DNA from: Axinella damicornis
Lineage: Eukaryota; Porifera; Demospongiae; Axinellida; Axinellidae
Reading direction: 5' to 3'
DNA length: 64,000 nt
Assembly: GCA_963931865.1 (NCBI GenBank)
Contig: OZ007512.1
Coordinates: forward strand, 6,036,883 to 6,100,882
Shown: positions 29,550 through 47,463 of the stretch, in pieces
Layout: each line of letters opens with the position of its first letter
How positions within the stretch are numbered: position 1 is the stretch's first letter
Notes under the pieces: generated by a model
Databases searched by the model: none
The model's input: only the letters and a program-made list of their open reading frames with translations
Told to the model about the DNA's origin: nothing
Translations under genes and position numbers: made by a program

Positions 29550-30101
29550 CTACACATCTGTTATGACCTCTTGTGATCCCACACACTGCTGGTTCACATG
29601 TACTCTATACTTCAGTATCTCTCCGATCCTAAATCGCTTATTGCACAAGGGACACGTGAGGTTTGGGTCATACGGAACGTGCTGCATCGTCAACCGATGA
29701 CCGCTTTCATCACCAACCTCTGTTGCAACAGACTCGGTGTGAATAATAGAGTCAAGATTTTGATCAAGATAAGTCCATGAGTATGACTCACGGACTTCAA
29801 ATGGCTCGGGATTTTGCTGGATTTGGGAATCCACCCTTGGGAGCACTGCAGACAAAGAGTGTTGATCTGTTGAGTGCTCGTTCTGAGGGCAGGCATGAGC
29901 CTGTGGTGGAATCTCTGGAGCACCCAAATGGGGAGGGGGTAGTTGGCGACATATTCTGGAACCACTGGGAGACATTGTGAGAGGACTTGGACTTGGTTTT
30001 GGTGGGCGTGGTGGTGGAGGCTGCTGGTTGTCCAGCTGTTCGGGGTGGCTTGCCATAGGCAGATCATGTACTGGAAATGTCAGTGGTGACTGTGATGTCT
30101 C
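29550..30101 (-). CDS. Last exon: Pro-rich linker and C-terminal CCHC zinc finger
   Basis: The exon has 183 codons plus TAG. Acceptor is tgtttacttacag. It is Pro-rich (QPPPPRPPKPSPSP), then acidic and polar. It ends in CPLC...H-x4-C: C783, C786, H801, C806 in the assembled protein. NEMO and optineurin end in a similar CxxC...HxxxC ubiquitin-binding finger, here with slightly longer spacing. Confidence 0.85.
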   Translation of the reverse strand, partial: ETSQSPLTFPVHDLPMASHPEQLDNQQPPPPRPPKPSPSPLTMSPSGSRICRQLPPPHLGAPEIPPQAHACPQNEHSTDQHSLSAVLPRVDSQIQQNPEPFEVRESYSWTYLDQNLDSIIHTESVATEVGDESGHRLTMQHVPYDPNLTCPLCNKRFRIGEILKYRVHVNQQCVGSQEVITDV

Positions 30102-33100
30102 CTGTAAGTAAACAGAGCATTGATGAGTATGTTAACAGTTACTAGTTCTGATGGACGTGTATTATACCAACGTACTTACATAGTGAAACTAATACCAAAC
30201 CTAGCCTCATTCCCAGGCAGCATCCACTAGTATACTGCAAGCGACAAACCCTGGGGTGAGAAGGCCTGGGAACGAGGCTATACCACAATCATTAATACCA
30301 AACTCCATCAATCAAACAACATTGCTACTAGCTAATTATTTCATCGTGGAGTTTCTGCAGCTATTCAAGAGCAGAGACAATTCAAGGGTGGCATTTACGT
30401 ATTATACTCAGCATGACAGGCGAATCATGTACAGTAAGCCAGTCGAGCATGCAATACCGTTATAATTGATACCCTTATTAATTCGTTGTAGTAACTAGCT
30501 AGCTAACAGCCTAGCCTAGCTACACTTCCAATGGATGGATTTTAATACGAAATATAGTGGAAACCAACACACGCACTGGTAGGTGTGGCATAACTCAAGT
30601 TTATAAGGGGTACAAGACAAAAGGGAACAAAAGGGGCCTCATGGAGAGCAGGCCTCCACTGGACAAAAGGCCTTACAAACTTAGAACAAAAGGCTTCTAT
30701 GCAATGATACAAAGACATATGAAATCTTTCTCTGAAAAGGGGCGTGTACGAATGCAATAAAGTGTACATTTCTGCATGCACTGTTATGGTTTTTGTACTC
30801 TAATCAATTCATACACGTAAATATTCTAATATTCATACAGCGGGTCGGTTTGAGTTTTATCATGGCTGATGGTGGCGACGGTGGAGCCGGAGGAGGCGAA
30901 CGGCCCTTGGGTTTCTTGTAGAAAGACACCAGCACAGCCATTTACGTTGTCCAGGTGTACTTCACACGTTCGACTGTCAGCTCTCAGGAAAGGCCTATGA
31001 AGATTCTGACCGCACCGTTTGATCGCCGTCCTGTACAGGCTCTTACACTGGTGGTGAAACTGTGAGCACTGCAATAATTTTTTGTTTTCCATTCGGCATC
31101 CCCTTTGCTCACTTCGACAGCTTGTGGAGGTCCAGGCATCTCGTGCCTCGGCCTTCTACCAGTACGTACCACGATTCCTCTATTTATTCATACACCCTAG
31201 CCTCGTTCCCAGTCCCACACCCAGCTTTTCGTCGCTTGCAGTATGTACTGCAAGCGACGAAAAGCTGGGCGATGGCCTGGGAATGAGGCTACATACACCC
31301 ACCATTTCCGGAAATATTATGTACTCTAATCAGCTAAAAAGTGTGCGAAAATTATACGGTAAAGGGTCTGTGCCATAGCTAATATCATTCAAGGCAGTAA
31401 AGTTTGTCTTTTGCTATCTGGCTACAGCTGTAACTAAACGGTATGCGGAAACAGATTCCTTTGATGAGGATCAATGAAAATGAACACAACTGTTTGCCAG
31501 CAGTAGTACACTCCAGACTGTTCTTGACTGCATGACCATCAGCTACCTATTTGCTTTCTACTTGGCTGTCACGAGGTTTGTACCACAATTCAAGACTAGC
31601 CTTGACTACTATTCAGGGGGTTCGATGGTACCCCCTTACATGAAATACATCTCAATCCAATATCTAGGCAGTAGAACTCCCAGGATCTAGTCTAGTGGTT
31701 AGGGATAAGCCTGGCTTACTATTCAAGCCAATAATAATATGAAGGTCTGAGAACCAGTGGCCTAACCCACAAACATTGAACTAGCCCCCCATAAACTTGA
31801 CAATACTGTTAAAAGATGCTTCAGGAGCTGCTGGAATTTCAAGAATTTCAAAATTTCGGTCATATGCTCATACCCACTGCATATTTTTATTCCATTTTTG
31901 TGCAATTCATGCAATTTCCAGTACTTGATTTTGGGTTAGGCCACTCTGGTTCTCAGCCCTTCAATTATTTACGAGGTAAAACGTTTTTACACACACACAC
32001 CATGGTTGTGGAGTTATCAGACTTTTGTGTTCATTAAGGCCGCCATATTCGGCTGTTTTCATTAATTTCACGCTTGCTTGGGCTTTCCGTTCCATCTGAC
32101 AGAATTGGTCTGGGCTGCGGCAGTTGCAAACAATACAGCAGTGGGAGTATGCATAATGCCGTAGGTTCAAGGCGGTGGCTGCAATCAGAGCCTATATACT
32201 GAAGTGTAGAAGAGGTCCCTGACCCTTCATTCGAAAACGTGAGTCTGGCCTTCAGCTTGCAGTTTCCGGGCTGTGTGAATATTGTGACTTGTTTACTCAG
32301 TGTGTGTTAATTGGGGCAGCCATCAGCTAGCCAGCTCAGTTCATCGGGTCTGAAGTGCCTGGCTGGTGAGAGCACAACCCTAGGATGTCGCTATCTTGGG
32401 AAGCAGTCCACTCGATAGCAAAGAGGAAAATAGCATGGGGCTGGTTTCATCTTTCATCTTCATCAATATGGCTGACAAACTCTTGCATTGCCTCCCTGAA
32501 GAGTGAACACATCCATCTCTCCCTGCCTCCTGACTGATAGTCATACGTCTTGTTTCTAAAGCCAACTGGTCCTGTAATTTAATACCGGTTAAAATTTTCA
32601 GTTAGCACACTACACTTTTATGGGTTTAGCCATCATACCCTTCTAAGCTCCTCATACAGATGCTCCCTTTCCGCTATATTAGTTTTAGACACCTCAATTG
32701 GTTCAGGAGATGTAGCACCCTTGTCCGACTGCTTCTCCTTCCTTCCTTTCTCAGCATCCTTGGGTTTTTCTGCCTCTGCTTTCTTCTCCTTTGCAAGCTC
32801 TTTTCGCGTTTTGTCAAGCTCTCTGAAGAGCTTATCCCTCTCTTTTGACAGTTCCCAGTTGGGAACTTCCAGTTCAGCAAGCTGAAACAAGATGCACACA
32901 ATAATCAATTAGGAATCTAGCTGCAAGCTCCTGTCCAATACACTTATACCTACACGTTACAAATTCACTAACAATAGCTGAAGTCAAACCTTTGAATGGT
33001 CATCTGTATCAGGGGGCTTTATCTTGGGCTTGCCAGATTTCACTTTCACCAATTCCATCCTTACTCTGTCCATCTCCTGAGTCAGGTCTTCATTGTGCTT

Positions 33101-36100
33101 TGTAAGCTCAGCAACCTGTGCAAGCAAGGAAGACAAGTCTCACACCACTATACATGAAACAATCTACACGAGTTGTCAGTCACCAACAATACTCATGCCC
33201 AACGCGGAGTCATCATAACATTACAACACAAAGCATATACTATCTAGTATCCGACGACTTAGTTTAGCATTCTTCCATTCCTCATTGACCCCAACATGCA
33301 CTTTCCATGCACTTAATCGCCAGTGTAGGTCAAGCATAAACTGCCGCTCAAATTCTATACACAGGAGCGGCAACACGGAGTCACACAAGCAACTACCTTA
33401 CTCCGATTGTTTTTACACTGCCATTATCAGATTCTTTCTCCATGCACTACATATGTATGTAACTACTTCCGCACATTCTCTGTGCAACGCAAGTTCTTGA
33501 TCCGTGCAATGCAAATAGAATGACCCATGCATGCCCTAAGCAGTCAAGTCAATAATATTGTATAAAGGCTTGGGCTTCCTAAATTTCTGAATCAGATCTG
33601 CATACTGGTATTAAGATTTTAACTTGTGTCTGTCTGTGTGTATGAGTGACGGAAGTGGGATGTTCATGGGGATGGACTAGACTATAGTGACGCGCGACCT
33701 TCGTTTATTTACTGAACCTCGAACTCTGCGAAGAATGTTCGAGAACTTTGGGTCCGGGCATGGGCTGGAATCCAGCAAGCGCAATTAGGGAGCAGCAGTC
33801 GAAGCAGACGTAATCGGGGGAGCAGCAGTTGAAGCGGACGCAATCAGGGAGTAGCAGCCGAAGTGGATGTGATCGGGAGCAGCAGCTGAAGCGGATGCAA
33901 GTGACGAGCAGCAGATGAAGCGGGCACAATCGGGGAGCAGCAGCTGGAAGCGGAGGCAAAGGGGGAGCAGCAGTTGAAGCGGATGCCGCAATCGGGCCCG
34001 GGAGCAGCAGCTGAAGCGGACGCAAGCGGCGAGCAGCAGCTGAAGCGGACGCAATCGGGGAGCAGCTCTGCAGTCTGCACAGAGAGCTGTCCGGCGCCAG
34101 ATTATGCACGTAGGCGAACGAGGGGGAAGAGCGAAGCGAGCTCATAGTATACATATATATATATAAATCAGTCTCCATCACATTTCACAGAATAACTGGT
34201 CACACAGGATTCTGAGTAAGCGTTAGACAACCTGGTCTTTCAGTGATGCCACCTGCTTCTTGTACTTCTTGTTGCGGTCTTCCAACTCAGCAAGCTGGAA
34301 CAACAAACAATAGTGTACACAAGTGATCACACAAAGGTTCTTCAATTCCAGCCAGAATTCACTTAGCTAGTTAGCTTCGACAACAGTACCATAGTACCAC
34401 AGATTAAATTTTATTACTGCACGACTGCAGTTTCGGCCTAAACAGGCCTCATCAGGTACACATACAGCATGCATACAGAGCTACTTATATACGACTTAGT
34501 GATCTAAAGCTCAACGATAGATACCATCAGGTTTCTATCCTCTACAGTACACCTATTCATGTTTGAAAACTCATTGGTTCACTATAGCCACACCCAACTC
34601 AAGCTTGTGGGGAGAGTTGTACTTAGGCACAGTGGTGCAGCTATTTTTGTGTACATAGAAGCATTTGCTTGGTTAGAGTGTCCCTTGAAAGCACCGTTCT
34701 ACAAGTCCACTATTATTACTCTATACCTTACCACTTTATTGCGTTGTTCCTGCATCCGAAGTTGTTCGGTCTCCAACCTTTCGGCCTCCTCTGCATGTTG
34801 TCTTGCAAGGTAAGCTATTTTCTTATGTGCCTGTTCTCGATCATGGCGCTCTGATTCGAAATCCTCCTTATAGAGTTGAGCCTAATTGAAGATACACAGA
34901 ATGATAAGACTGCAGGCAGAGGTTCAATTAGCCCTCACATACAGGATTGTATGCTGAGGCGGAAGAACCTTCTTTGGAACAGTACCGGTTTCTATAGATT
35001 GTGTGCAAACTACGAATAAATCAATATATTAAGATTTTAATGTGCGTGTGTGTGTGACGGAAGTGGGATGTTCGTGTGACCTTCGTACTTCAATTTACTG
35101 AACCTCCACAAATAATGTTCGAGAACATGATTAGGCATGGGCTCGAATCTTCCAGAACAGATGAGGCTACGCGTTAAGCGGATGCAATCGGGGAGCAGTA
35201 GTCGAAGCGGACGCAATCGGGGAGCAGCAGCCGAAGCAGACGCAAGCTAGCGGCGAGCAGCAGCTGAAGCGGACGGAAACGGGGAACAGCAGTCATGAAG
35301 CGGATCGATGCAATCGGGGAGCAGCAGCTCTGCACAGAGAGCTGTCTGGCGCCGGATTACTCACGTAGGCGAACGAGGGGGAAGTAGCTGAGCGAGCGAA
35401 GCGAGCGAAGCTACTTGTATTAATTATTCAGCTAAAAATCACACTCTGTTGTCCAATGCATGGTACTCAGTCTTAGTGGTGGATGCCTGATCTGAAAACC
35501 ATGCACGAACAGCCGAAGGGAAGGTGAGCTCTGTCATTTCAATGCGAGCCATGCTGGGGACACTGACGCTATCAGTTGCCAAAACTCCCCAGACAGGTAA
35601 TTTGATGTGCCTTAAAAGAATGACCTCAATAATAAGTTATATCGGCAATTCAGATACTACAGTACATGAGTGTGTTGTAGTGCTAAACTAATATTATGCT
35701 ATACCGGGTGTTCAACTCAAAATGTATAGGGAGCACCACGCTCTGACATTTCCTTGACATCACACTATAATGTGCACAGTGCGCACCTTGACACATCACA
35801 TCACTCTGGGCAATCTCAGTAGTCAGCTTCCGCATAAGTTCAACGTCAATTGGTCTTCCATCTCACTAAACACCCTATCTCATCAGCTTACTCAAGTTGA
35901 CCTTGCTTACTGCCTTCTTCCTGGCCTTGCTGTGAAATTTGTCCATTACGAGCTAGGTGGTTTGATGTTTGTACATATAGTGAAGACAGCTCAATTGAGG
36001 ACCTTTAATGATTGCATAGCGCCATACGGAAGTTACAACTCAATCTGGCTTTTATTTTAATGTCATTATGTGTAATAATTATGGGAAGCCGAACATTCCT

Positions 36101-39100
36101 TCATTGCTCCACCGGGAGAGGGGTGGGTAGGTTAGATCCACGGAAACAGCACTACTTCAGTTTCAGCGGCAAACTCTTCCATTTACGCTTGGCCATCTTT
36201 TTTACAATATAGCGTAAACCACCAATTATCGGCATGACTTTATTATCGGCACCCGACATACCAATTATTGGCGCTTAGTAAAGGGAGAGTACACGGCGAA
36301 AATACGGATTCCGTTCGCCCTACGTCATCGTCACGCAAGCTGTTTACAAGACTAAAGCTTTGCAGATGGTTTAAAACGTTATAACTGGGTGTTATTTACT
36401 GTCCTTTTAGCCATTTTATGTTGTAGGGCTGTTCATGTCTAATCAAAAGAAGGGTAGGGGGAGACCACGACCTTGGATCCTCTCCTGCGACTGGTTCAGA
36501 CTTTTGAGGACGACTAGTATGACTGTGCTGGATCAGAATGGGGGAGTGCGTGTGCAAGAGATGGCTCCACGAATGTGCCAAGTACTGGATGTGGAAGAAA
36601 GAGAATTGTTTTGCTTTTACTGTGTAGTGTGATGAACGAATTTTATTCAAAAATTCATATATTGAAGGGGTTGCATGCTTTGGTGTTTTTTTTTCACTGG
36701 GTGATAGATAGAATGGTCATGAACCTGGGGGATTTGTGGTGGATTTTTGTGGCCTTCAAGGAATGGAGGTGAGTCGATGCCATCAGCATGTGCCGATAAT
36801 TGACACAGGATTATCTATGGGAGTACTAGGCAGTGACGATAATACGTACAGGGTGCCGATAATTGATTTGCGTGAGGTTGCATTCGCTAGTGCACCACTA
36901 TAAGCCGGAAATACGTAACAGCTTTAAAGGTGGTAGGGCTTATAGAGGGCGTGACGGTCTATAGGTCAGTGCAAGTTTGGTGTCCTGGAACCGTTCCTGG
37001 ACGATGCTGCAAATCATGCAAATTCAGGTGACGATAATTGGTTGTTTACTCTACATACTGACTACACATGGCCTACTATACATGAGGCCTAACTTGCTCA
37101 TGTGAGCAAGAAATACTCTTGCATCTCTAAATTAACTTGTACACTCTCCACTCAGTCGTTCATTCGCGTACGTAGAATGCATCAAGATAATATCACACAG
37201 GTGTAGTGATATAGATGGCAGGGCTTTTACACCTCCAGTCTCACAGCATGCATAAAAATGGAGGGAGAAGGCGGCCTGGTGAATCATCTTACCACGTGAA
37301 CCGAGGCACCGATGATGTTATAATAGTATTGGCTTATTCACAATCTTATCCACAGCTACAAAGAAGTAAGACTACCAACACAAGTTTCAGGGAAGAGCCT
37401 GCCTCTAAAACATATCCAGGTTCACATAACCACTGAGGGATGGCTGTGATACAAGTGGTGCAAACCCCAAATAGTGCTTATTATTGTTCACTGCATGAGA
37501 TGATTAAATCACTGGATTTGTCACTCAGTGGCCCTTTGCAGCCGTGATTCAGCCTGGGTAGCTATACACTGTATACACTCGGTGTAGTGGCATCTTCTTA
37601 GCTCTCATATCACTGTAAAAAGTAATCGGTTGTTTTAACCACAGAGTGGTTACCTTGAATTGGTTGCAGAGAACCCTGGAGACAGTGGTTATGGGAAGTT
37701 TACTCATGCAAGTTGGGCTTATAGAGTTATAATTGCATAAGACAACCTGTGAAGGCAAAACTGGCCCAGATCATCTTACTGCTGATCTTGGAACATCTGC
37801 AAGCTCACTACAACTGGTTGTCATGGAAATTTTTCATGCCCTGATGGCAGCATGTCCCTCACAGATGTTTAGTGGTTACGATCACACAACTGTGGTTGTA
37901 GATAATCTGGACCATCATCCTCTCAAGTTCCCTAATGCAATTAGTCTCTGAACCCCTTCTAACCACCAGCTCCAGCTTGTCTGCAACCAGGGTAACCACT
38001 CTGGGTTGAAACAACTGATTTGTTTTTGCTGCACACACGGAATGCATGATCAGACTCATACACCTAAACGACATAATTATGCAGTCTGTGCCATGGATCA
38101 CATGGTAAGACTTCTTAGGCCTTCTACCTCCATTTTTACATACCGTGAGTGAAGGCGGAATTAGGCTGGGTCACTAGCTACAGAGAAACCTGTCAGTGAT
38201 GACATGCACTCATGTGACAAAAGTTACCACAAATTCACCCCGCTTATCCGTACTGTTGGCTACAGAAGCCTGGGTTGCCTGGGAACAAGGCTAGGAAGGT
38301 TTGGCTAAACTAAACCAAAAGATTAAACTCTCTACTAGTAGCTACTGAAGTTAAGTCCTATCTTATAGCTAGTGAGAAAATATAGCCTCGTTCCCAGGCC
38401 ACACGGAGTAGGGAAAAGTGGCTTGGTCTTGAAATGTCACATCGACGCCACATGTATACGGATACCTCAGTCTTGGAAATCTGTACTTGATTCTGCAGAG
38501 CTTCCTTCTCCTGTTCCAGCCTCCTGGCTATTGGGCCCTCGACACATTAACTAGTGTGATATTCTCATTATTGAACCTATTCATCTTCTTCATCTGTTCA
38601 GAGAGCTGCATATTCTCTGTCTCTAGTTTCTGACACTTCTGATAGGTCATTCTGCTGTCTTCTGCCACCCATTGAGCCCATTCCTCTTTCTGGGTCATTT
38701 TGTCCAGTCGAACCTGCAATCGGTTGAATACATAAAGACATGTCCAGCTATTACTTTAGCTACGTACTAATTTTGGTATGACTGCCTTAGTAAGGAAGAC
38801 AAATTAATAGCCTCGTTCCCAGGCAGCGTCCGGCCTGGGAACGAGGCTAACAAAATAATGGCTGATATCAGATATACCGTAGTGTACGTATCAAGCGCCC
38901 ACCACGTATCAAGCGCCCACCCCCCTCTTTACGCGAAAGTTACTGCACAGGGTCCAAAAGCAGTGTAGTAAGGGCCCACCCATCACAATAGTTTTCAGCA
39001 GCATTTCTTAACCTCTGGGCGAGGTTGTGCATTCAAAAAGGCCGTTTTACAGTGAACTACAGCGTGCTTAAAGACGCATGATCAATTTCTTAGTGTGAAA

Positions 39101-42100
39101 AATGGACTTATATATTCATAGCCGGTCATTGATATTCACAGCTTACCGCACTGCTTGTTGTTTATACAGTGCTGAATGGGTGGGCGGATACTACATGCCT
39201 AAGTAGTCTGAGTACGCATCTAGCGCCCACCCCCCTGTCCAGCGGCATTCTATTGTCCCCAAACCCTGGGCGCTTAATACGTACTCTACTCTACGGTATG
39301 TGACCATCTCTGGGAAAATCATCCATCTGGGATGAACATTGAATATAGATTATGCAAGTTTAATCTTCGTGCTTGTACTTCGATTACATGCTTTACTTCT
39401 AGCGATTAAATGCATGGGACTTCCCACCTTAGTACACAATATACGTGCATGCTCTGAAGTGTTTTCAGAAGCCCTACACATTTCAGATTTACGCACTATT
39501 TAAATGCCCCGTATGATCGAAACAGTATATAGGCATATGTATTGACCACATTTAGATGACCATAACCCTGGAATTGTAAGTCCAAATTGAAAGAGACTGA
39601 TGTGATCAACAAGGAATGGAGCGCTCTGGTGGTGCAACTTTTCACAAAGGTACCAGATGAGTTGGTTTTCCCAGAGAGGTTCACATATTCCGAATTAAGA
39701 CCATGTGGAATGGAACAAAAGGCAGGCCCATATATGTACGTACTATAGGTACTAGGATAATTTCTGCATCACTATGAAGGTTCCCCATTAGTCAGACTAG
39801 GCTTGTATCTAGTTTATGACGTGGTTTCCTATTTCCTTTTCAACAGTAGTGATGTGCCCTGACTAACCTTCAATTTTTGGGCACATGCTTCTAATTCTTC
39901 ATTTCTAGCATCAACGGCATCCATTGACTTCTCCAAGGACTTCTTGTCTCGCTGTAACACCCCCACATCCATTGACAACTTCCTGTTCTCTCCCTATAAT
40001 TACCAAAAGATCATGAAGTAAAGATTGATCCCACGAGCAGCATCATAATCCACACACTGCATGCACATCAAACTGAGTTTTTAAGGAAAGTGATTTTGCG
40101 ACTCTATACCAAGTGGAGAAAATATGTCTCAGACCACATCAGAGAGGCATGGCTGGTGGAAGCATAATTACCATGAAGAACTCTGTCGCAACAGCATGCA
40201 CCTTCCACAGAGGTCGAAATAAGGATTACATGTTGAGCGGTCAAAATGTCCTAGCACTTTAGATTTTGATTGGACATTTACAAAATATGAAATATGTTAG
40301 GTCATGCCCGCGCCCGTCACCAAAAAGAAATCACAAGAGCATCAATGTGTATTCTCCAAGCTAGATTCAAATCCATGTTGGTTGTGTGTATATGTGTATT
40401 GGAAAAAAAAGAATTTGGTTGACTAGAACTCATGCATAAAGAAAGAGAGAAAAAGAAATTGGCAGATTCGAACCAGGTACAGTCATTATGGGTCATGCAC
40501 TTAGATGATTGTATTCATGCATGTTGTTCGGTGACGCCTACCGAACAAGTGCATTAGTGTGTGGTCATTTTAGCTAAATGCACGGAAATTGACCGATGAC
40601 CGCATGTTATTTCGACCTCAGCTTCCATATACCTGAGAAACGATGGTAAGCTTTAGCCTCATTCCAATGCTCCTCCCAAGCAATCATTCCGACTAATAAC
40701 CTTTGATTTACACTTCAAAAGTTGGGTATGGTCAGCTTAATGTACACACACACACCTCAAGCTTGTCCACCATGCTTCTCCACACTGCATCAGTCTCTTC
40801 GGCTACCTGTTAACAATTGTGAAATAAATTGACATTCACTGTACTGAACTAAACAGTTGTTTTTATGCCCTCTAATGTGACTTGCACCACAGTGTGTGGG
40901 CATTTGAAAGGCACTGCTACAGTGGACAAATCCCATGTATACTAAGCGTTGCCTTTGAAGCCCAATATACCCTACCGTATATCAAATTGAATATACCCTG
41001 AGCATTGCTAGGCAGCTGTCAGTTGACACTGATTGTTACAAGTCAGCTTTACCATGGCTTCGCTAGGGTGTATGAGATTTGCAAAATGTTTGGAGGGAAA
41101 TAGAGAAAGTTATCAATTATCGGACACCATCTATATTCGGACGCGCTAGCGCGGAAGTTGTGCAATTGCGGAAGTGGGCGTGACCTTCCGTCGATAGTGC
41201 ACATCCCTCTCACTGTGCGTTGCAAGTTTGGTGTTGCTCTCTTGTTTGGCTCTGGAGTTATAATCTGTCAAAGACAAAACTCTGAAACAGCTATTATCGG
41301 ACAATTGTATGCATTATCGGACGCCGCTCTTCGTTGCTTCCTCTGAACCAGTTTTCGGCAGGATTTCTGCAACGTGGTGGAGCCCCAAGACCCTTCTGCT
41401 GCACACTTGATTTTTGGTGTTGTAGCTGCCTCAGGCGCTGAGAGGTGTCATTGGAATTTTGACCAAGTCTCGCCCTCTTTGATCGGACAGTGGATTTTGC
41501 CGTGTTTTAGTATGGACGCTGCCAACACCGCTTTGGGGCCATGATGCGGACATCACTGGAATGTGCAGCTTCTCAGCAACACAACGGTACAAGTCCGGTG
41601 TTCATACGTCGTATAGTTTTTAGAGCTGTTTTTCGTCTTTCCATCCAGTATTACTTGCTACATACTAGTCTATCGAACATGATGCTGATGTATACAAGTA
41701 ATACTGGATGGAAAGACGAAAAACAGCTCTATCTCGAAAACTAAACAATGTATGAACACCGGACTTGTACCGTTGTGTTGCTGAGAAGCTGCACATTCCA
41801 GTGATGTCCACATCGAGGCCCCAAAGAGGTGTTGGTGGCGTCCATACTAAAACACGGCAAAATCCACTGTCCGGTCAAAGAGGGCGAAACTTGGTCAACA
41901 TTCCAATGACACCTCTCAGCGCCTGAGGCAGCTACAACACCAAAAATCAGGTGTGCAGCAGAAGGGTCTTGGGGCTCCACCACGTTGCAGAAATCCCGCC
42001 GAAAACTGGTTCAGAGGAAGCAACGAAGAGCGGCGTCCGATAATGCATACAATTGTCCGATTATAGCTGTTTCAGAGTTTTATCTTTGACAGATTATAAC

Positions 42101-45100
42101 TCCAGAGCCAAACAAGAGAGCAACACCAAACTTGCAACGCACGGTGAGATGGATGTGCACTATCGACGGAAGGTCACGCCCACTTCCGCAATTGCACAAC
42201 TTCCGCGCTAGCGCATCCGAATATGGGTGGTGTCCGATAATTGATAACTTTCTCTATAAGGCAATTAGGAGTGACATACATTAACCGTGCATGTGGCAAT
42301 TGCGCAAACAAATGGAATCACAAAAACATTTGAACAGCATCCATAGGCCATGCAGTCAGTACAGAAACATCAACACCGTATTCAAATTGAATGTTGTACA
42401 GTACACATACACACAGTTAACTAGTTACGGTCGTAGTCCTGGAGCTTGCTGCTCTTGCCCTTGGTGAATGCAATACAGATTGGGCCGCGACTTGTTTTCG
42501 GAAATGGAGGAGTGCCAGGAATATAAACCAAGCACTGGTGCTCAGAAGATCTTGAGAATCCTGTCGTCGGCAAGTTGAATAACTCGATATTGCACTGTTG
42601 CAGAGGTTCGAGACAAGGGGAAAGCCTTACTTCCCGAGGCCTACATGTTGTCAAGAATCCTAGCGGCAGTAGCGCTGTGATGTCGGAGACGTCTTTCAGA
42701 AATTCGTGGCACCTGCGATACTGTTTCTCGGGAACTCTGTCCAAAACGAATAGGAGTGGAGATTTTTGACGCTCCGGTTATCACACCAGAAGAGCAGGAT
42801 AAGCTGTGGCTGTCCAGCGTGTTGTCGCTTACTAGTTTTGGGTATTTGGCAGAATCAGGAGCACATCAAGCAGGCGGAATATACCCTTTCGATGTCACAG
42901 TCATCTGAGCATCACTTACTGTGCCTACAAACGCTTTCGGATGCCAAATCTTGCGTTGGAGGGGTTTAAAATCGGAATCTGTCTCGGTCATCTCTCCGGC
43001 GCCGGCTAGCTAGCTTTTGTCAACTGAACTACTGAAAACGCGCGCCGTCCAGTCATCTCAATCACAACGCGAGGGACAGCTGGTGATAGAGGATCCTGTC
43101 AATCGAGGACACTGTCAACGGCCGGATGCAGTCACGCAGGTACATGTACAGCTACGAAGAGCCGTACAGTGTACTTAAACGACGGCACCTAGCTACGTGT
43201 TGCACAGCGCGATTATGGGTTGAAAATTTCGTGGGTGGAAATTTTCGTGACTTGTCGATGAGTCACGAAAATAACAAAATTTGGCACCCCACGAAAATAA
43301 CCCGCTATACGGTATGATGCAGTTTAATGTATTCCCTCGGGCTTCACCCTCGTGAATACATAAAGTGCACTCAGGGTACAAATCCCATATACCCATGGTA
43401 CAACTATTACTTATTGGGCGAGCGTAAGTGAGCCCCACACTAGTCGTAGTCGCGGCTCGAGCTGTTGTCGATATGTCTCCAATACCGTAAATCTGGCGCA
43501 TGCAATATAACGTACGAAACTTTGCACTCATTTCAGGACGTTTTACCGTAAATCTCTGCCGTGTCTGGTACTGAGACTAAGGACAATGGCGACAACAAGG
43601 ACGCAGACCGCCGCTCGTGACCTACCTACGTACGTATTCATTGCCTAGAGGCTTAGAGCGAACAGTCTACCTCTGTACCTCTTCACTGAATCAGTGGCAA
43701 CAGCAAAGACGAACACTGCTACTGGACCTACCTATGCATCAAACTCCATGAACTCTGAGCTGTAGCCAGCTACGTATACAAACAGGTCTGCAGGTCCTAC
43801 AGAACACATGGTGTCCTGGACCAGCTGCTTCAGCTAGCCTGACTCGTAGTTCCTGTAGTGTGTTGCCAGCTTTGTTAGTCTAGCCAAGAATTTGTGCCAT
43901 TACTCAGCCGAGTATCACGGATGCCTCTGCCACTGATCGGTGAGTGTCTACACCATACGTAGTATCTATTTCTACACAGCGTACTCAGCCAAGCGGGATG
44001 TAGGACCTGTTACACCCCTTGGAAAAGGACAGTGCTTTTCGTTACACTTCGGAAGTGCCTCAGGCTCCTCCTATGGTGTCTATATGTGTTGGCTTGCCTG
44101 TGAAGACAAAGTTACATTGCCCCTTGACCTCCACGTGGGACCTCAGCGAGCGTTTGATGGCAGTGAATGTGACATTGTGAGCGGTGATATTGCTAGTGAC
44201 TCCAGCGACGTAGAAGTGCTAGGAGGGCTCTGATACATGCGCTCTCGCTGCTGCTTGTGCTTGATATAAAGGTGGGCACTCTTTGGGTGGAAAACACTTG
44301 ACACTGACCATCACCCGTCTAGACGGGGAAAAAGCTTCACTGCCAGAAATGGAGGCCCTACAAGGCGAGAGGTCTATTTTCTCAGCCCATTTGTGCAGAG
44401 GAGAGAAATGGCCGGTTCAGCTCCCAACCAAGGGCCACAAGCAGCCATGTTACCTTGGCCAATTGCCTAAACCCACCCACCTTCCCCTTGTCCCACCCTT
44501 TCTGATGGTGAAGAGCCTAAGTCTCAAAGACACAACATCAAAGTCTCATGCCGTCTGTAGACGGCTTTATCGGTTAAAGTGTTGAGTCTTCTCCGCTGAT
44601 CTCGACGTCTTGGACTGGTACCAACACAATGAAGTGTCAAGAGCAATTCTGTCTAGGTAGACTTTGCCTGTGGCTTTAAGCACTTCAAGTATCAGTTGAG
44701 TTCACGTGTTCTGTGCATTCTGCGCACAAGGCACGATACAGGTACGTACGCATTCCTAGTAGATAATATATAAACTTTGTTTACAGGTAACACTATAGTG
44801 ACAAGCAAGGTACACTTTATTGACAAGCATTTAAGTAGTGAGTAGCCTCTTAGTGACAAGTAGCCTAATAGTGACAAGCATTTAAGTAGCCTCTCACTTG
44901 TAATGGGCACTTTGGTAACAAGCAACAGGGATTATTACCATGACCTCCGGACCACTCTTGAGCTGCATGGGATAGTATTTTAGCTTGCATAGCTTTCTCC
45001 AAGTAGTCCAGTCCCATGAACAATGAATCCTAAAGCTATTACCTTGCTCTCACCTAGTAGGACAGTTATGTGACGTCATAATATTTAATGCTATAAATAC

Positions 45101-47463
45101 TAGTGTTTGTGGGTTCAAAATTCCACTAATATTAGTACCCGCAAATAATGGTGACCCCCCGGTAAGTACAATAACGTATACTGTGCTCTTCTAGAGTGCA
45201 ACATAGTGTTAGTTAGTTTGGCTGATCACAGAGCAGTGATTGCTGTACGATGAAGTAAACTGTCACTATAGGAGTGGTATGCACGTATGCATAGTCTGAA
45301 CTTTCTAGAAGTACCAGATCACAGATCTTATTCATCACTGCTATTGAGTTAACCATATATTAAACATCATTACAATCAGGCCGTCAGACCTGATAAAACA
45401 ACTTCAAACAAATACTACAGTATCATCTAGCCTCAAACCCAGGCACAGAGGACTAATGCTTGCACATGCGCTTAATGAACCGCGTGGACTTTAAGAAGAG
45501 GAGACTTTCCGGGCGTGAATAGTGATGTCTATACCACACAACGAATTCACGAAGACATGATTGCAGCTTTTACTCTCACGCTTGGAACTTGGTCTGTCAT
45601 CAATGCTATGAGGGATGAGACTACAGTGACTACGCTGTCATCTCGGGCAAGCTTCACATCAAACACGAACGGTATGACACAATAACTTACCATAACCAGT
45701 GCGTATACGTAGCCAGTCTTTATGCATACCTACTATCAAGGGGCAACCGCACTCCTGTTGCAACCCCGGTTTGCGACTCGCCGTAGCGCAAGCGCAGTTA
45801 GTTCCAATTAACGCACATGCCACGTGGCAACCATGCTCTGTCGATTGCTAGCAATGGCGGCCAAAGGAAGTTATTACAGCACTTGTGAGTTTTGGCATGT
45901 AAGCGTCAGTGAACGACAGCGATTACGGCTGTGTGGTCAAAATCTTTGTGAGTCCTTTGTAAGACTGTACTGGCAACCAACGTCAAAGAAAGCGATCGAG
46001 CAATGGCGGCCGACGGCACGACAAAAGCGCTTGTATCTCCACCACCAAGGTGAGTTTCAGCACAATTATTATGGGTTTGTCTAACTGCATGATAGCGATC
46101 ACGACAGTGTAGTCAGAATCTTTGTAGGCCTTTCCTGCAAGCTATGAGGTTTACATTAATTACGCGGCACAATTTTTCCCCTACCAGGAGTGTAACAAAG
46201 ATGCCCTCCGCTCGGATTCCAGCATTATCGCTGCACATCTAAGTCACCAATATTGACAGAATACGATTGTGATACAGGTACATACATGTGTCCGACGTCA
46301 ACAAGCCATGGGGATGCACGGTCTTGTCCGGGAATCCCGGAATGTCGGGAAATTAAGTACATGTGCAAACAGTGAATACCAGGTGCTTTCGCCCCCTCCC
46401 CCGTGCCTGGGCTTGAGGCTACTGTAACATCATGTTCATACCCACATCTACGTACACAATATTAGTTGCCCCTCTGCCACCCACTTGGTTAAGATCAAAC
46501 ATAAAGTTAACACATTACCTTCTCTGATTCACCAGAAAATTGCAAAACTTCTGCCACTCTTCGGGGATGCATGGTACACTGCTCTTTCAAACTTTCATTC
46601 AACCTAATGGTGCTTGGTCGTTGCTCTGGTTTGTCTTGCAGACACTGAAGTACTAGAGGGTGCAGGCAGTGTTGCTCACCACCCATCTGGTCAATGGCCT
46701 TCTTCCGCTTCACAATCTGAACAGTGCCCTGATGAAGATCGGCAGGAGTCAGGGCCACTTCGTGTACACCAGGAAACTCCTGTGTGGCTGTGTAGAGCAT
46801 GAGATGACCAAAGGAAAAAATATCAAGTTCCAAGCCATAGTGCGGATTCTCTGTTAGAGCTTCAGGGGGCATGTAGTTCTGTGAGCCTGGCACTTTCGTC
46901 TGCGCAATTTTGGTTTGCATTTGAAGATCAAGCAACTTTGATACCCCAAGGTCGGCTATTTTTGCTTGTAAGCCATCTGCAGATAGCAGAATGTTGTTAG
47001 CACTCAGGTCTCGGTGAATGACAGGAGGGGTGAGTGTGTGGAGGTACAAAAGACCGTAGGATACATCCAGCAGAATCGACAGTTTGATCGACAATGGGAT
47101 GTCCACCCCCTTCCCTTGATGCTCTTCCAAGAACTTGGCTAGGTCAGTGTGAAGACACTCCATAACAAGGGACAGATCACTCGGACTTGGTCCATAACGT
47201 ACCCCCACGAAGTGCACAATATGGGGGTGCCTCAACTTGCTGAGAATGATGCATTCCTCGCGGAACTTATCCCGTAATAGCAATCTTTGTCTGGGAGGGA
47301 CCTCCGGGTTGACTAAAATGTCGTGTAGTCGCTTATCAATACAAACAACCCCTTTCACTGTTACTTTGTAAACGGCTCCATACGCACCTGAGCCTTTCTT
47401 CTCATCAGATTTAAGTCCTTTTACATTCTCCAGAACAAAAGGAGCAAGCACATCATCAGCCAT
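29550..47463 (-). CDS. Kinase - coiled coil - UBAN - CCHC zinc finger protein (NEMO/optineurin-like body fused to a TKL-type kinase)
   Basis: Exons in transcription order: 47463-46519, 40806-40756, 39993-39868, 38713-38577, 38523-38466, 34881-34732, 34294-34232, 33115-32990, 32881-32639 and 30101-29550. All have GT-AG borders, and the lengths total 2451 nt (816 aa plus stop) without a frame break. Residues 1-315 hold a kinase domain. Residues about 316-439 are coiled coil. Residues 440-489 carry a UBAN motif (AQLYKEDFESERHDRE, compare the DF..ER..RE core in NEMO, optineurin and ABINs). More coil follows, then a Lys/Glu-rich stretch, a Pro-rich stretch (634 onward) and a CCHC finger at 783-806. 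In known proteins UBAN and such fingers bind Met1- or Lys63-linked ubiquitin. A role as a ubiquitin-directed kinase is inference. The introns are rich in MITEs. Confidence 0.85.
30202..30280. mobile_element. Short foldback of the tagcctcgttcccaggc family
   Basis: tagcctcattcccaggc and gcctgggaacgaggcta enclose a ctgcaagcgacaaa core. Confidence 0.8.
31198..31292. mobile_element. Foldback of the tagcctcgttcccaggc family
   Basis: tagcctcgttcccag and agcttttcgtcgcttgcagt are repeated inverted to form a near-complete hairpin. Confidence 0.85.
31300..32387. other. Intron of the kinase-UBAN gene, no other gene seen
   Basis: Holds scattered short frames and no recognisable element apart from unannotated repeats. 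Confidence 0.5.
32388..32571 (-). CDS. Candidate alternative exon 10 (coil then early stop)
   Basis: A good acceptor (taaattacag) opens at 32571. The phase-0 frame DQLALETRRMTISQE extends the heptads of exon 9 and continues to TAG at 32388-32390. If used as a terminal exon it gives an isoform without the Pro-rich and zinc-finger part. A weak in-frame donor (tgt|gttcac) could instead make it internal. Skipping it also keeps frame. Confidence 0.4.
32639..32881 (-). CDS. Exon 9: coiled coil with Lys/Glu-rich charged stretch
   Basis: The exon has 81 codons in phase 0/0. Acceptor is cttgtttcag and donor is agg|gtatga. It opens LAELEVPNWELSKERDKLF, passes a strongly charged section, and ends EREHLYEELRR. 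Exons 7, 8 and 9 start with LAELE, VAELT and LAELE, which suggests exon multiplication. Confidence 0.8.
32990..33115 (-). CDS. Exon 8: coiled coil
   Basis: The exon has 42 codons in phase 0/0. Acceptor is cttgcacag and donor is aag|gtttga. It starts VAELTKHNEDLTQEMDRVR and ends in a Lys/Pro-rich linker (KSGKPKIKPPDTDD). Confidence 0.75.
33695..34145 (-). mobile_element. Repeat family D, reverse copy
   Basis: Core units gagcagcagctgaagcggac gcaatcggg. Flanks are aacctcgaactctgcgaaga and cgtaggcgaacgagggggaa. It lies in the intron between exons 8 and 7 of the kinase-UBAN gene. Confidence 0.8.
34232..34294 (-). CDS. Exon 7: coiled coil
   Basis: The exon has 21 codons (LAELEDRNKKYKKQVASLKD and one more) in phase 0/0. 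Acceptor is tgttgttccag and donor is cag|gttgtc. Confidence 0.72.
34732..34881 (-). CDS. Exon 6: UBAN ubiquitin-binding coiled coil
   Basis: The exon has 50 codons in phase 0/0. Acceptor is cttcaattag and donor is gtg|gtaagg. It begins AQLYKEDFESERHDREQAHK. The order Q..Y..DF..ER..RE is the conserved core of UBAN domains of NEMO, optineurin and ABIN proteins. The Asp-Phe and Glu-Arg pairs are the residues known there to contact linear di-ubiquitin. Confidence 0.85.
35040..35430 (-). mobile_element. Repeat family D, reverse copy 2
   Basis: Same core and flanks with fewer units. It ends gcgagcgaagctacttg. Confidence 0.78.
35439..35610 (-). CDS. Uncharacterised coding-like fragment
   Basis: An open stretch includes PVWGVLATDSVSVPSMARIE and FPSAVRAWFSDQASTTKTEY, ending in TGA. 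Phase does not fit the surrounding kinase gene. It may be a retroelement remnant. I do not recognise it. Confidence 0.2.
36210..37052. mobile_element. MITE-like element with agcgtaaaccaccaattatcg ends
   Basis: The left end agcgtaaaccaccaattatc matches the complement of the right end gataattggttgtttactct with a few mismatches. Internal ccaattatcggc/gccgataattg copies recur. It contains a 65-codon frame opening MSNQKKGRGRPRPW of unknown value. Confidence 0.6.
38466..38523 (-). CDS. Exon 5: coiled coil
   Basis: This 58-bp exon enters at phase 2 and leaves at phase 0. Acceptor is aatagccag and donor is gag|gtatcc. It encodes RLEQEKEALQNQVQISKTE, a clear heptad pattern. Confidence 0.7.
38577..38713 (-). 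CDS. Exon 4: coiled coil
   Basis: This 137-bp exon enters at phase 0 and leaves at phase 2. Acceptor is ccgattgcag and donor is aatag|gttcaa. It encodes VRLDKMTQKEEWAQWVAED and KLETENMQLSEQMKKM. The next intron would be only about 53 nt, and the frame stays open into part of it, so the exact donor is uncertain. Confidence 0.7.
38808..38849. mobile_element. Minimal foldback of the tagcctcgttcccaggc family
   Basis: Perfect 17-bp arms around a very short loop. Confidence 0.85.
38875..39298. mobile_element. MITE with taccgtag … ctacggta ends
   Basis: Left taccgtagtgtacgtatcaa gcgcccacc and right gggcgcttaatacgtactct ... ctacggta are inverted with mismatches. gcgcccacccccctg is repeated inside. 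Confidence 0.7.
39868..39993 (-). CDS. Exon 3: coiled coil
   Basis: The exon has 42 codons in phase 0/0. Donor is aag|gttagt and acceptor is taattatag. It is rich in Glu, Lys and Leu (RKLSMDVGVLQRDKKSLEK). Third-position and splice structure support a real exon. Confidence 0.75.
40756..40806 (-). CDS. Exon 2: short coiled-coil exon
   Basis: The exon has 17 codons (VAEETDAVWRSMVDKLE) in phase 0/0. Acceptor is gttaacag and donor is gag|gtgtgt. It is separated from the kinase exon by a 5.7-kb intron, so further coil exons could have been missed in between. Confidence 0.65.
41101..42256. mobile_element. 1.16-kb foldback element with arms of about 555 bp
   Basis: tagagaaagttatcaattat at the left is the exact complement of the right end. 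The arms pair almost perfectly to the centre near 41654-41692. There is no transposase. TA at both ends is compatible with a mariner-type target. It lies in intron 1 of the kinase gene. Confidence 0.92.
42421..42991 (-). CDS. Nested two-exon gene, 140 aa, unknown function
   Basis: Exon 1 is 42991-42920 (24 codons, MTETDSDFKPLQRKIWHPKA...) with a strong donor aca|gtaagt. Exon 2 is 42771-42421 (116 codons and TAG) after an acceptor with a CT-rich tract (ttatcctgctcttctgg...ggag). Both junctions are phase 0. The product has hydrophobic stretches (LLFVLDRVPE, ITALLPLGFL) and several Cys, with no signal peptide or motif I recognise. It lies inside intron 1 of the kinase gene on the same strand, next to a foldback element. 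It could be a transposon remnant or alternative exons of the host gene. Confidence 0.45.
43196..43320. repeat. Inverted gtgggtggaaattttcgtg-type motif cluster
   Basis: gcgcgattatgggttgaaaa and cacgaaaataacccgctata enclose internal inverted tcgtgac/gtcacga. It looks like a decayed MITE. Confidence 0.5.
43321..45737. other. Intron 1 of the kinase gene, low-information stretch
   Basis: Contains plus-strand open frames at 43940-44233 and 44283-44585 without recognised domains, and an agtgacaag/tagcctc repeat patch at 44795-44890. No supported gene. Confidence 0.45.
45738..46196 (+). mobile_element. MITE family B in kinase intron 1
   Basis: Starts ggggcaaccgcactcctgtt and ends cccctaccaggagtgtaac. 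Confidence 0.75.
46519..47463 (-). CDS. Exon 1: protein kinase domain (TKL/RIPK-like)
   Basis: The exon has 315 codons. ATG at 47463 and donor gag aag|gtaatg. The Gly loop GSGAYGAVY is at 24-32. The likely ATP lysine is K44 in VCIDKRLH. FREECIILSKLRHPHIV supplies the alpha-C Glu, and M101 is the likely gatekeeper. The catalytic loop HRDLSANNILL is at 150-160. The metal motif is DLG (171-173) instead of DFG, and MPPEAL replaces APE. All catalytic residues are present, so activity is likely. HRDLxxxN and the LRHPHIV style suggest a tyrosine-kinase-like serine/threonine kinase. Confidence 0.92.

Follow-up and report, generated by a model that had tools for sequence, protein, structure and literature searches.

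In NEMO, optineurin and ABIN, the UBAN coil binds linear and Lys63-linked ubiquitin as a dimer, and to our knowledge known animals divide kinase and ubiquitin-reading functions between two proteins. Optineurin, for example, has no kinase domain, and its partner kinase, TBK1, is a separate protein. Could both functions reside in one chain? The gene family described here, one copy of which lies in the 64-kb stretch of sponge DNA that was analyzed (hereafter the window), resembles optineurin in its order of coil, UBAN core and C-terminal finger and in its PDB sequence matches, while it differs from optineurin in a TKL-like kinase that appears to be encoded by the same gene. NEMO, to which the coil body has its best match (PDB 2v4h, E 2e-4), also places its UBAN before a C-terminal zinc finger (layout as given in part of PMC10245932). 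NEMO, however, binds IKK-beta via its N-terminal region, and it is at that end that the family has a kinase domain; NEMO and optineurin are scaffolds without a catalytic domain, whereas the family has a kinase exon in what we infer to be the same gene. TNIP1 (ABIN-1) is closest to another UBAN exon of this genome, on contig C9 (LKVFQEDFEAERRDRERMSNEKD), but the C9 gene, unlike TNIP1, continues into a kinase domain. On the side of the kinase, TNNI3K and other TKL kinases are the nearest solved structures by sequence among the best 60 of 602 matches, but TNNI3K carries ankyrin repeats and not a UBAN coil.

We consider it likely that genes of this family encode, in one polypeptide, a catalytically complete TKL-like kinase, a UBAN-like coil, a proline-rich stretch and a UBZ-like C2HC finger, and that such a protein would be clustered on ubiquitin chains. 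This is said of the family and not of the window's own copy. Each of the modules is already known; in the open-access literature we found neither their combination, or any other kinase-UBAN fusion, nor a UBAN protein of sponges.

The window gene and its modules

The gene is a chain of exons on the minus strand, running from 47463 down to 29550: a 315-aa kinase exon is followed by coiled-coil exons, the UBAN exon, more coil and a last exon (Table 1), and the joined exons give a conceptual protein of 799 aa. Junctions have AG/GT borders and are in phase 0 at all but one, the exception being inside the third exon. Kinase, coils, UBAN core and finger are all at the places given by the first-pass annotation. 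Its frame-consistent chain of ten exons is reduced to nine supported ones, whose frame is consistent only if a 52-nt intron is assumed. The candidate exon 32383-32601 was left out, having no supportable donor or conserved frame. Intron 1 is 6.5 kb long, partly because of an inverted repeat whose 521-nt arms are 96% complementary and 116 nt apart, and which looks like a transposon or foldback element.

Table 1. Positions of exons and other features of the window gene
Feature	Position	Strand	Remarks
Exon 1	46519..47463	-	ATG and complete TKL-like kinase, 315 aa; donor AAG/GTAATG
Inverted repeat in intron 1, transposon-like	41100..42257		arms 41100-41620 and 41737-42257
Exon 2	39868..39993	-	coiled coil; acceptor conserved in paralogues
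Exon 3, first part	38577..38713	-	coiled coil; open frame continues to stop at 38528
Two extra bases relative to sister copy	38530..38531	-	probable frameshift
Exon 3, second part (counted as "exon 4" if the 52-nt intron exists)	38466..38523	-	coiled coil
UBAN exon	34732..34881	-	AQLYKEDFESERHDRE...; phase 0 on both sides
UBAN core	34834..34863	-	DFESERHDRE
Coiled-coil exon	34232..34294	-	
Coiled-coil exon	32990..33115	-	
Coiled-coil exon	32639..32881	-	
Last exon	29550..30101	-	proline-rich stretch, finger, stop codon
C2HC finger region	29553..29720	-	UBZ-like beta-beta-alpha in model

The kinase frame of the window is recognized by the Pfam family Pkinase with an E-value of 4.5e-33 (115 bits). 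In the PDB its closest chains by sequence are TNNI3K and plant CTR1, which we take to be TKL kinases, then WNK and CDK2, and the best 60 of 602 matches consist of TNNI3K, CTR1, WNK, CDK2, roco4 and ScRIPK; judged from these nearest chains, the window kinase is TKL-like. Kinship to IKK or TBK1 is argued against, as neither occurs among those best 60 of 602 matches, and no IKK-specific Pfam family was found in the pieces scanned. The window kinase was aligned with 26 loci, giving 27 rows in which the window appears a second time as L021. His and Asp of the HRD motif, the Asn, and Asp and Gly of the DLG motif are present in all rows, and the catalytic Lys and the Glu of helix alpha-C in 26, the odd row having a gap in the fragment L027. 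By the residues of an active kinase, which are all retained, the family kinases are predicted to be catalytically complete, in agreement with the apparently active TKL-type kinase that had been annotated in the window. Their dN/dS against paralogues was 0.07-0.27 in nine of ten comparisons, of which six are rough since dS is over 1.5 and saturated, and three, with dS about 0.3, give 0.24-0.27; L025 is absent from this set because its glycine loop is outside the search pattern. By these ratios the kinases look to be under purifying selection. A single-sequence structure prediction of the kinase reached a pLDDT of 33 and was set aside. TKL-like kinases are very numerous in this genome, with runs of neighbors on at least C1, C5, C8, C10 and C12.

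For the coil, HMM support in the UBAN exon had been named as a point to check, and it was found below the curated level. Scanned by itself, the exon matches CC2-LZ better than any other Pfam family (18.6-19.2 bits), and joining the exons of the window raises the match to 24.5 bits (E 3.7e-5), which then covers profile positions 14-94 of 100. The curated Pfam cut-off of 35.3 bits is reached by no copy, the best in the genome being 31.8, and we therefore call the coil UBAN-like. Thus, of the UBAN core annotated in the window, the motif is present, DFESERHDRE fitting DFxxERxxRE, and CC2-LZ is the best family, but the cut-off is missed. In a scan of the whole 226-Mb genome with this profile (E <= 10), 21 matches were obtained, 14 of them in C8:11.39-11.94 Mb, two in the window and its sister copy, one in the C9 kinase gene and four elsewhere; the window exon itself has an E-value of only 1.4 there. 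The profile also gives matches in two of 14 control genomes, none over the cut-off. When the window coil body (residues 316-600) was searched against the protein database, none of 6415 candidates passed E 0.01, and dN/dS of the UBAN exons, over 40 codons, is mostly saturated (0.12-0.61 where computed) and is given no weight.

The finger, of C2HC type, is located in the last exon, where the first reading had a C-terminal CxxC...HxxxxC finger. Its model is beta-beta-alpha (pLDDT 74.7), and the structural neighbors found by Foldseek and VIA-align include the UBZ fingers of FAAP20, NDP52 and TAX1BP1, none of them significant. The best Pfam family is Zn_ribbon_4, with E 0.005, below its cut-off. 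As modelled, the finger appears UBZ-like.

A family that appears to be reshuffled

Loci of the window kinase type number 26, with 48-95% identity, after which the kinase score drops from 283.6 to 216.3 bits: they are the window, a sister copy about 94% identical to it at C8:6.89-6.91 Mb on the same chromosome, a single locus on C50, which is a short contig, and a tandem array of 23 at C8:11.39-11.94 Mb. The array also holds 20 UBAN-like places, several of which are weak alone (E 0.05 to 3), and its kinase and UBAN exons alternate, so that the pairing of a kinase with a unit is not always certain. In L052 and L053, the borders of the kinase, coil and UBAN exons are AG/GT and in phase, and the chain reads without a stop through UBAN, the 3' ends of these genes being outside the resolved part. 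Exon 2 was not found in L053, and a spacer exon such as that of L052 was sought in intron 1 of the window and none was found. Other units have lost parts. The UBAN exons of L051, L054 and L057 open at AG/GCTGA without the seven-residue start QLYKEDF, which removes the D-F of the core; L063 has no UBAN core, and L064 none in the stretch read. In L054 (6845-7501), the coil runs into about three repeats, YQLMSTQKWMNWYVYM...GWKGDPGPQGHW, recognized by no Pfam family. Another gene, at L055/L061, has exon 2, UBAN and finger; the 19 kb covered by L055 and L056 contain no kinase of the window type, and this gene may be kinase-less.

There are also other layouts. On the minus strand of the array, the window-type kinase exon opens at an AG without ATG in four of eight loci (L039, L040, L043 and L045) and for this reason looks internal there; of the other loci, L038 has the ATG, L044 and L046 have the AG nine bases earlier, and L041 has neither. 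A second type of kinase has coil and kinase in one exon downstream of UBAN exons, as seen in L056-L055, where the order is UBAN, coil, kinase and stop, and on C9, where a TNIP1-like UBAN exon (TNIP1 E 2.9e-4) is followed by a 656-nt intron and then by the coil-kinase exon in phase. A Neuralized (NHR) exon (1.1e-24; minus strand 1613-2230 of L065, C9:3436500-3443500) lies on the same strand as the C9 UBAN exon, about 2.4 kb upstream; it ends near a possible donor and might belong to the same gene. A relative of the second kinase type on C7 has a long coil and no UBAN in the 0.7 kb read. On C4, a weak CC2-LZ match of 20.5 bits (C4:19813835-19813954, minus strand) lies about 9 kb downstream of two relatives of the second kinase type (C4:19823276-19827699) on the same strand, and this locus is possibly a further kinase-UBAN gene. 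Taken together, the family seems to be reshuffled with gain and loss of UBAN, kinase and finger exons, and would be a candidate for a diversified immune family in sponges.

A probable single gene, a UBAN-like coil, and the state of the window copy

The window alone cannot decide between one gene and two, because intron 1 takes up 6.5 kb, a stop follows in the kinase frame three codons after the donor, and exon 2 holds an in-frame ATG. All this would suit two neighboring genes duplicated as a pair, a single-exon kinase and a kinase-less NEMO/optineurin-like scaffold, and the gene of L055/L061, with UBAN and finger but without window-type kinase, looks like such a scaffold. Paralogues speak otherwise. 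In the window, in its sister and in all 16 plus-strand copies, kinase similarity ends at a phase-0 GT, whereas in those 16 the in-frame stop that follows lies anywhere from one to about 60 codons further on; the donor is conserved and the position of the stop is not. Exon 2 and the UBAN exon begin at acceptors that are conserved; the ATG of exon 2 is present in just four of seven copies, and the ATG of the kinase exon stands 20-25 codons before the glycine loop in all 14 copies readable by pattern. From kinase to exon 2 the distance is merely about 1.4-1.6 kb in the compact copies L051 and L063. In the C9 gene a single exon encodes both coil and kinase and is 656 nt away from the UBAN exon, and an Ephydatia protein unites kinase, coil and finger. 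We therefore find a pair of genes unlikely. Because of the start exon, the conserved donor without a conserved stop, the conserved UBAN acceptor, the stop-free paralogues, the reverse layout on C9 and the Ephydatia protein, a single gene with kinase, coil, UBAN-like core and finger appears well supported for the family. Is its coil, then, a UBAN at all? The likeness could have arisen by chance within a fast-evolving coiled coil, in a family that does not read ubiquitin: CC2-LZ stays below the cut-off everywhere, the core is lost in several copies, and the coil body matches other coil families as well as unrelated chains (of 22 PDB matches at E <= 1, five are chains of complex I B18/NDUB7 or of Homer3, the best at E 6e-4). 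The other 17, however, are NEMO, optineurin or TNIP1/2, and the best of them is aligned on YKxDFxxERHxRE. CC2-LZ (NEMO), never above its cut-off, is also the sole Pfam family matched by all eight UBAN exons scanned. Among eight aligned UBAN exons, which were picked for an intact core, E-D-F, E-R and D-R-E are invariant columns at identities to the window down to 22%, and it is the exon at just 22%, that of C9, which independently picks TNIP1. PDB matches, clustering in the genome and invariant core columns thus argue against chance; a fortuitous resemblance strikes us as very improbable, and the UBAN reading of the coil holds at the level of sequence.

The condition of the window's own copy is another matter. 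Compared with its sister, L058, it has two extra bases that introduce an in-frame stop into a stretch which the sister reads straight through as one open coding exon. The chain can be kept in frame by a 52-nt intron (38524-38576 plus border), and a GT-AG pair could in principle excise it, but in the sister the sequence of this assumed intron belongs to the coding exon. A real 52-nt intron appears less likely than a frameshift or an assembly error, and the frame of the window copy is probably broken between kinase and UBAN. Its kinase exon is intact and the two bases could be an assembly error; the kinase of the sister, on the other hand, is split over two frames, so that both copies near 6-7 Mb look worn. 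On balance we lean toward the window copy being a pseudogene, or yielding only a kinase-coil protein that ends before UBAN. This concerns the copy and is compatible with the reading of the family as single-chain kinase-UBAN genes. Since the likely frameshift makes the fusion in the window's copy insecure, the kinase-UBAN claim should rest on members of the array, and the one protein with kinase, UBAN and finger that the first-pass annotation had proposed for the window is well supported for the gene family and insecure for this copy.

A possible mechanism and relatives in other sponges

How might such a protein work? The UBAN coil, aided by the finger, would dimerize and dock on ubiquitin chains linked through Met1 or Lys63, on an activated complex or a marked cargo. 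Docking would gather the kinase domains, which might then activate one another in trans and phosphorylate proteins close by. Translated from one transcript, a single chain would thus do in cis what NEMO with IKK, or optineurin with TBK1, do as two, and might be described as a self-scaffolded, ubiquitin-directed kinase. The copy number and the turnover of modules would suit an immune role. In a wider and more tentative picture, in which our doubt slightly outweighs our confidence, sponges may have evolved kinases that sense ubiquitin within a single chain, and may still be reshuffling them in a tandem array that changes fast. Built as kinase-coil-UBAN-finger, as UBAN-coil-kinase and perhaps as a UBAN with a pair of kinases, these would be diversified innate-immune sensors, the cis counterpart of the NEMO-IKK and optineurin-TBK1 pairs. 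If transcripts confirm the fusion, ubiquitin reading and phosphorylation would be hard-wired in one protein of an early-branching animal, which would offer a minimal model, in a single chain, of kinase signalling activated by ubiquitin and would raise the question of whether the NEMO-IKK and optineurin-TBK1 pairs and the fusion are alternative solutions.

In other species, no protein with the kinase-UBAN architecture was seen among the 193 collected from the kinase searches. A first search gave 73 proteins, with sponge matches from Ephydatia, Halichondria and Dysidea; in a second, 7995 candidates were scored and 1679 matched, of which 120 were listed. The UBAN motif was found by pattern in none of the 193 (120 of the 1679 matches in the case of the second search). 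Most of these proteins look like intron-blind predictions, which could not include a UBAN exon that lies apart. An annotated protein of Ephydatia muelleri, P0033 (EMCRGX_G007056, 568 aa), is like the family in having kinase (52% identity over 95%), coil motif (QVKQYQKQV) and finger type together: its C-terminal DPNLKYPLCGTMFKKGEIQKLKCH aligns with the family finger at 54% over 24 aa (pairwise E 2e-7). It is unlike the family in that there is no UBAN motif or CC2-LZ match and the first cysteine of the finger is replaced. By joining kinase, coil and finger, P0033 independently supports kinase and coil-finger body as one protein. In P0040, from Halichondria, a related kinase stands at the C-terminal end, after a coil. 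In the predicted protein P0001 (1289 aa), relatives of the window kinase form a row of several kinase domains, and in P0032 (554 aa) a relative is joined to a GTPase-like domain.
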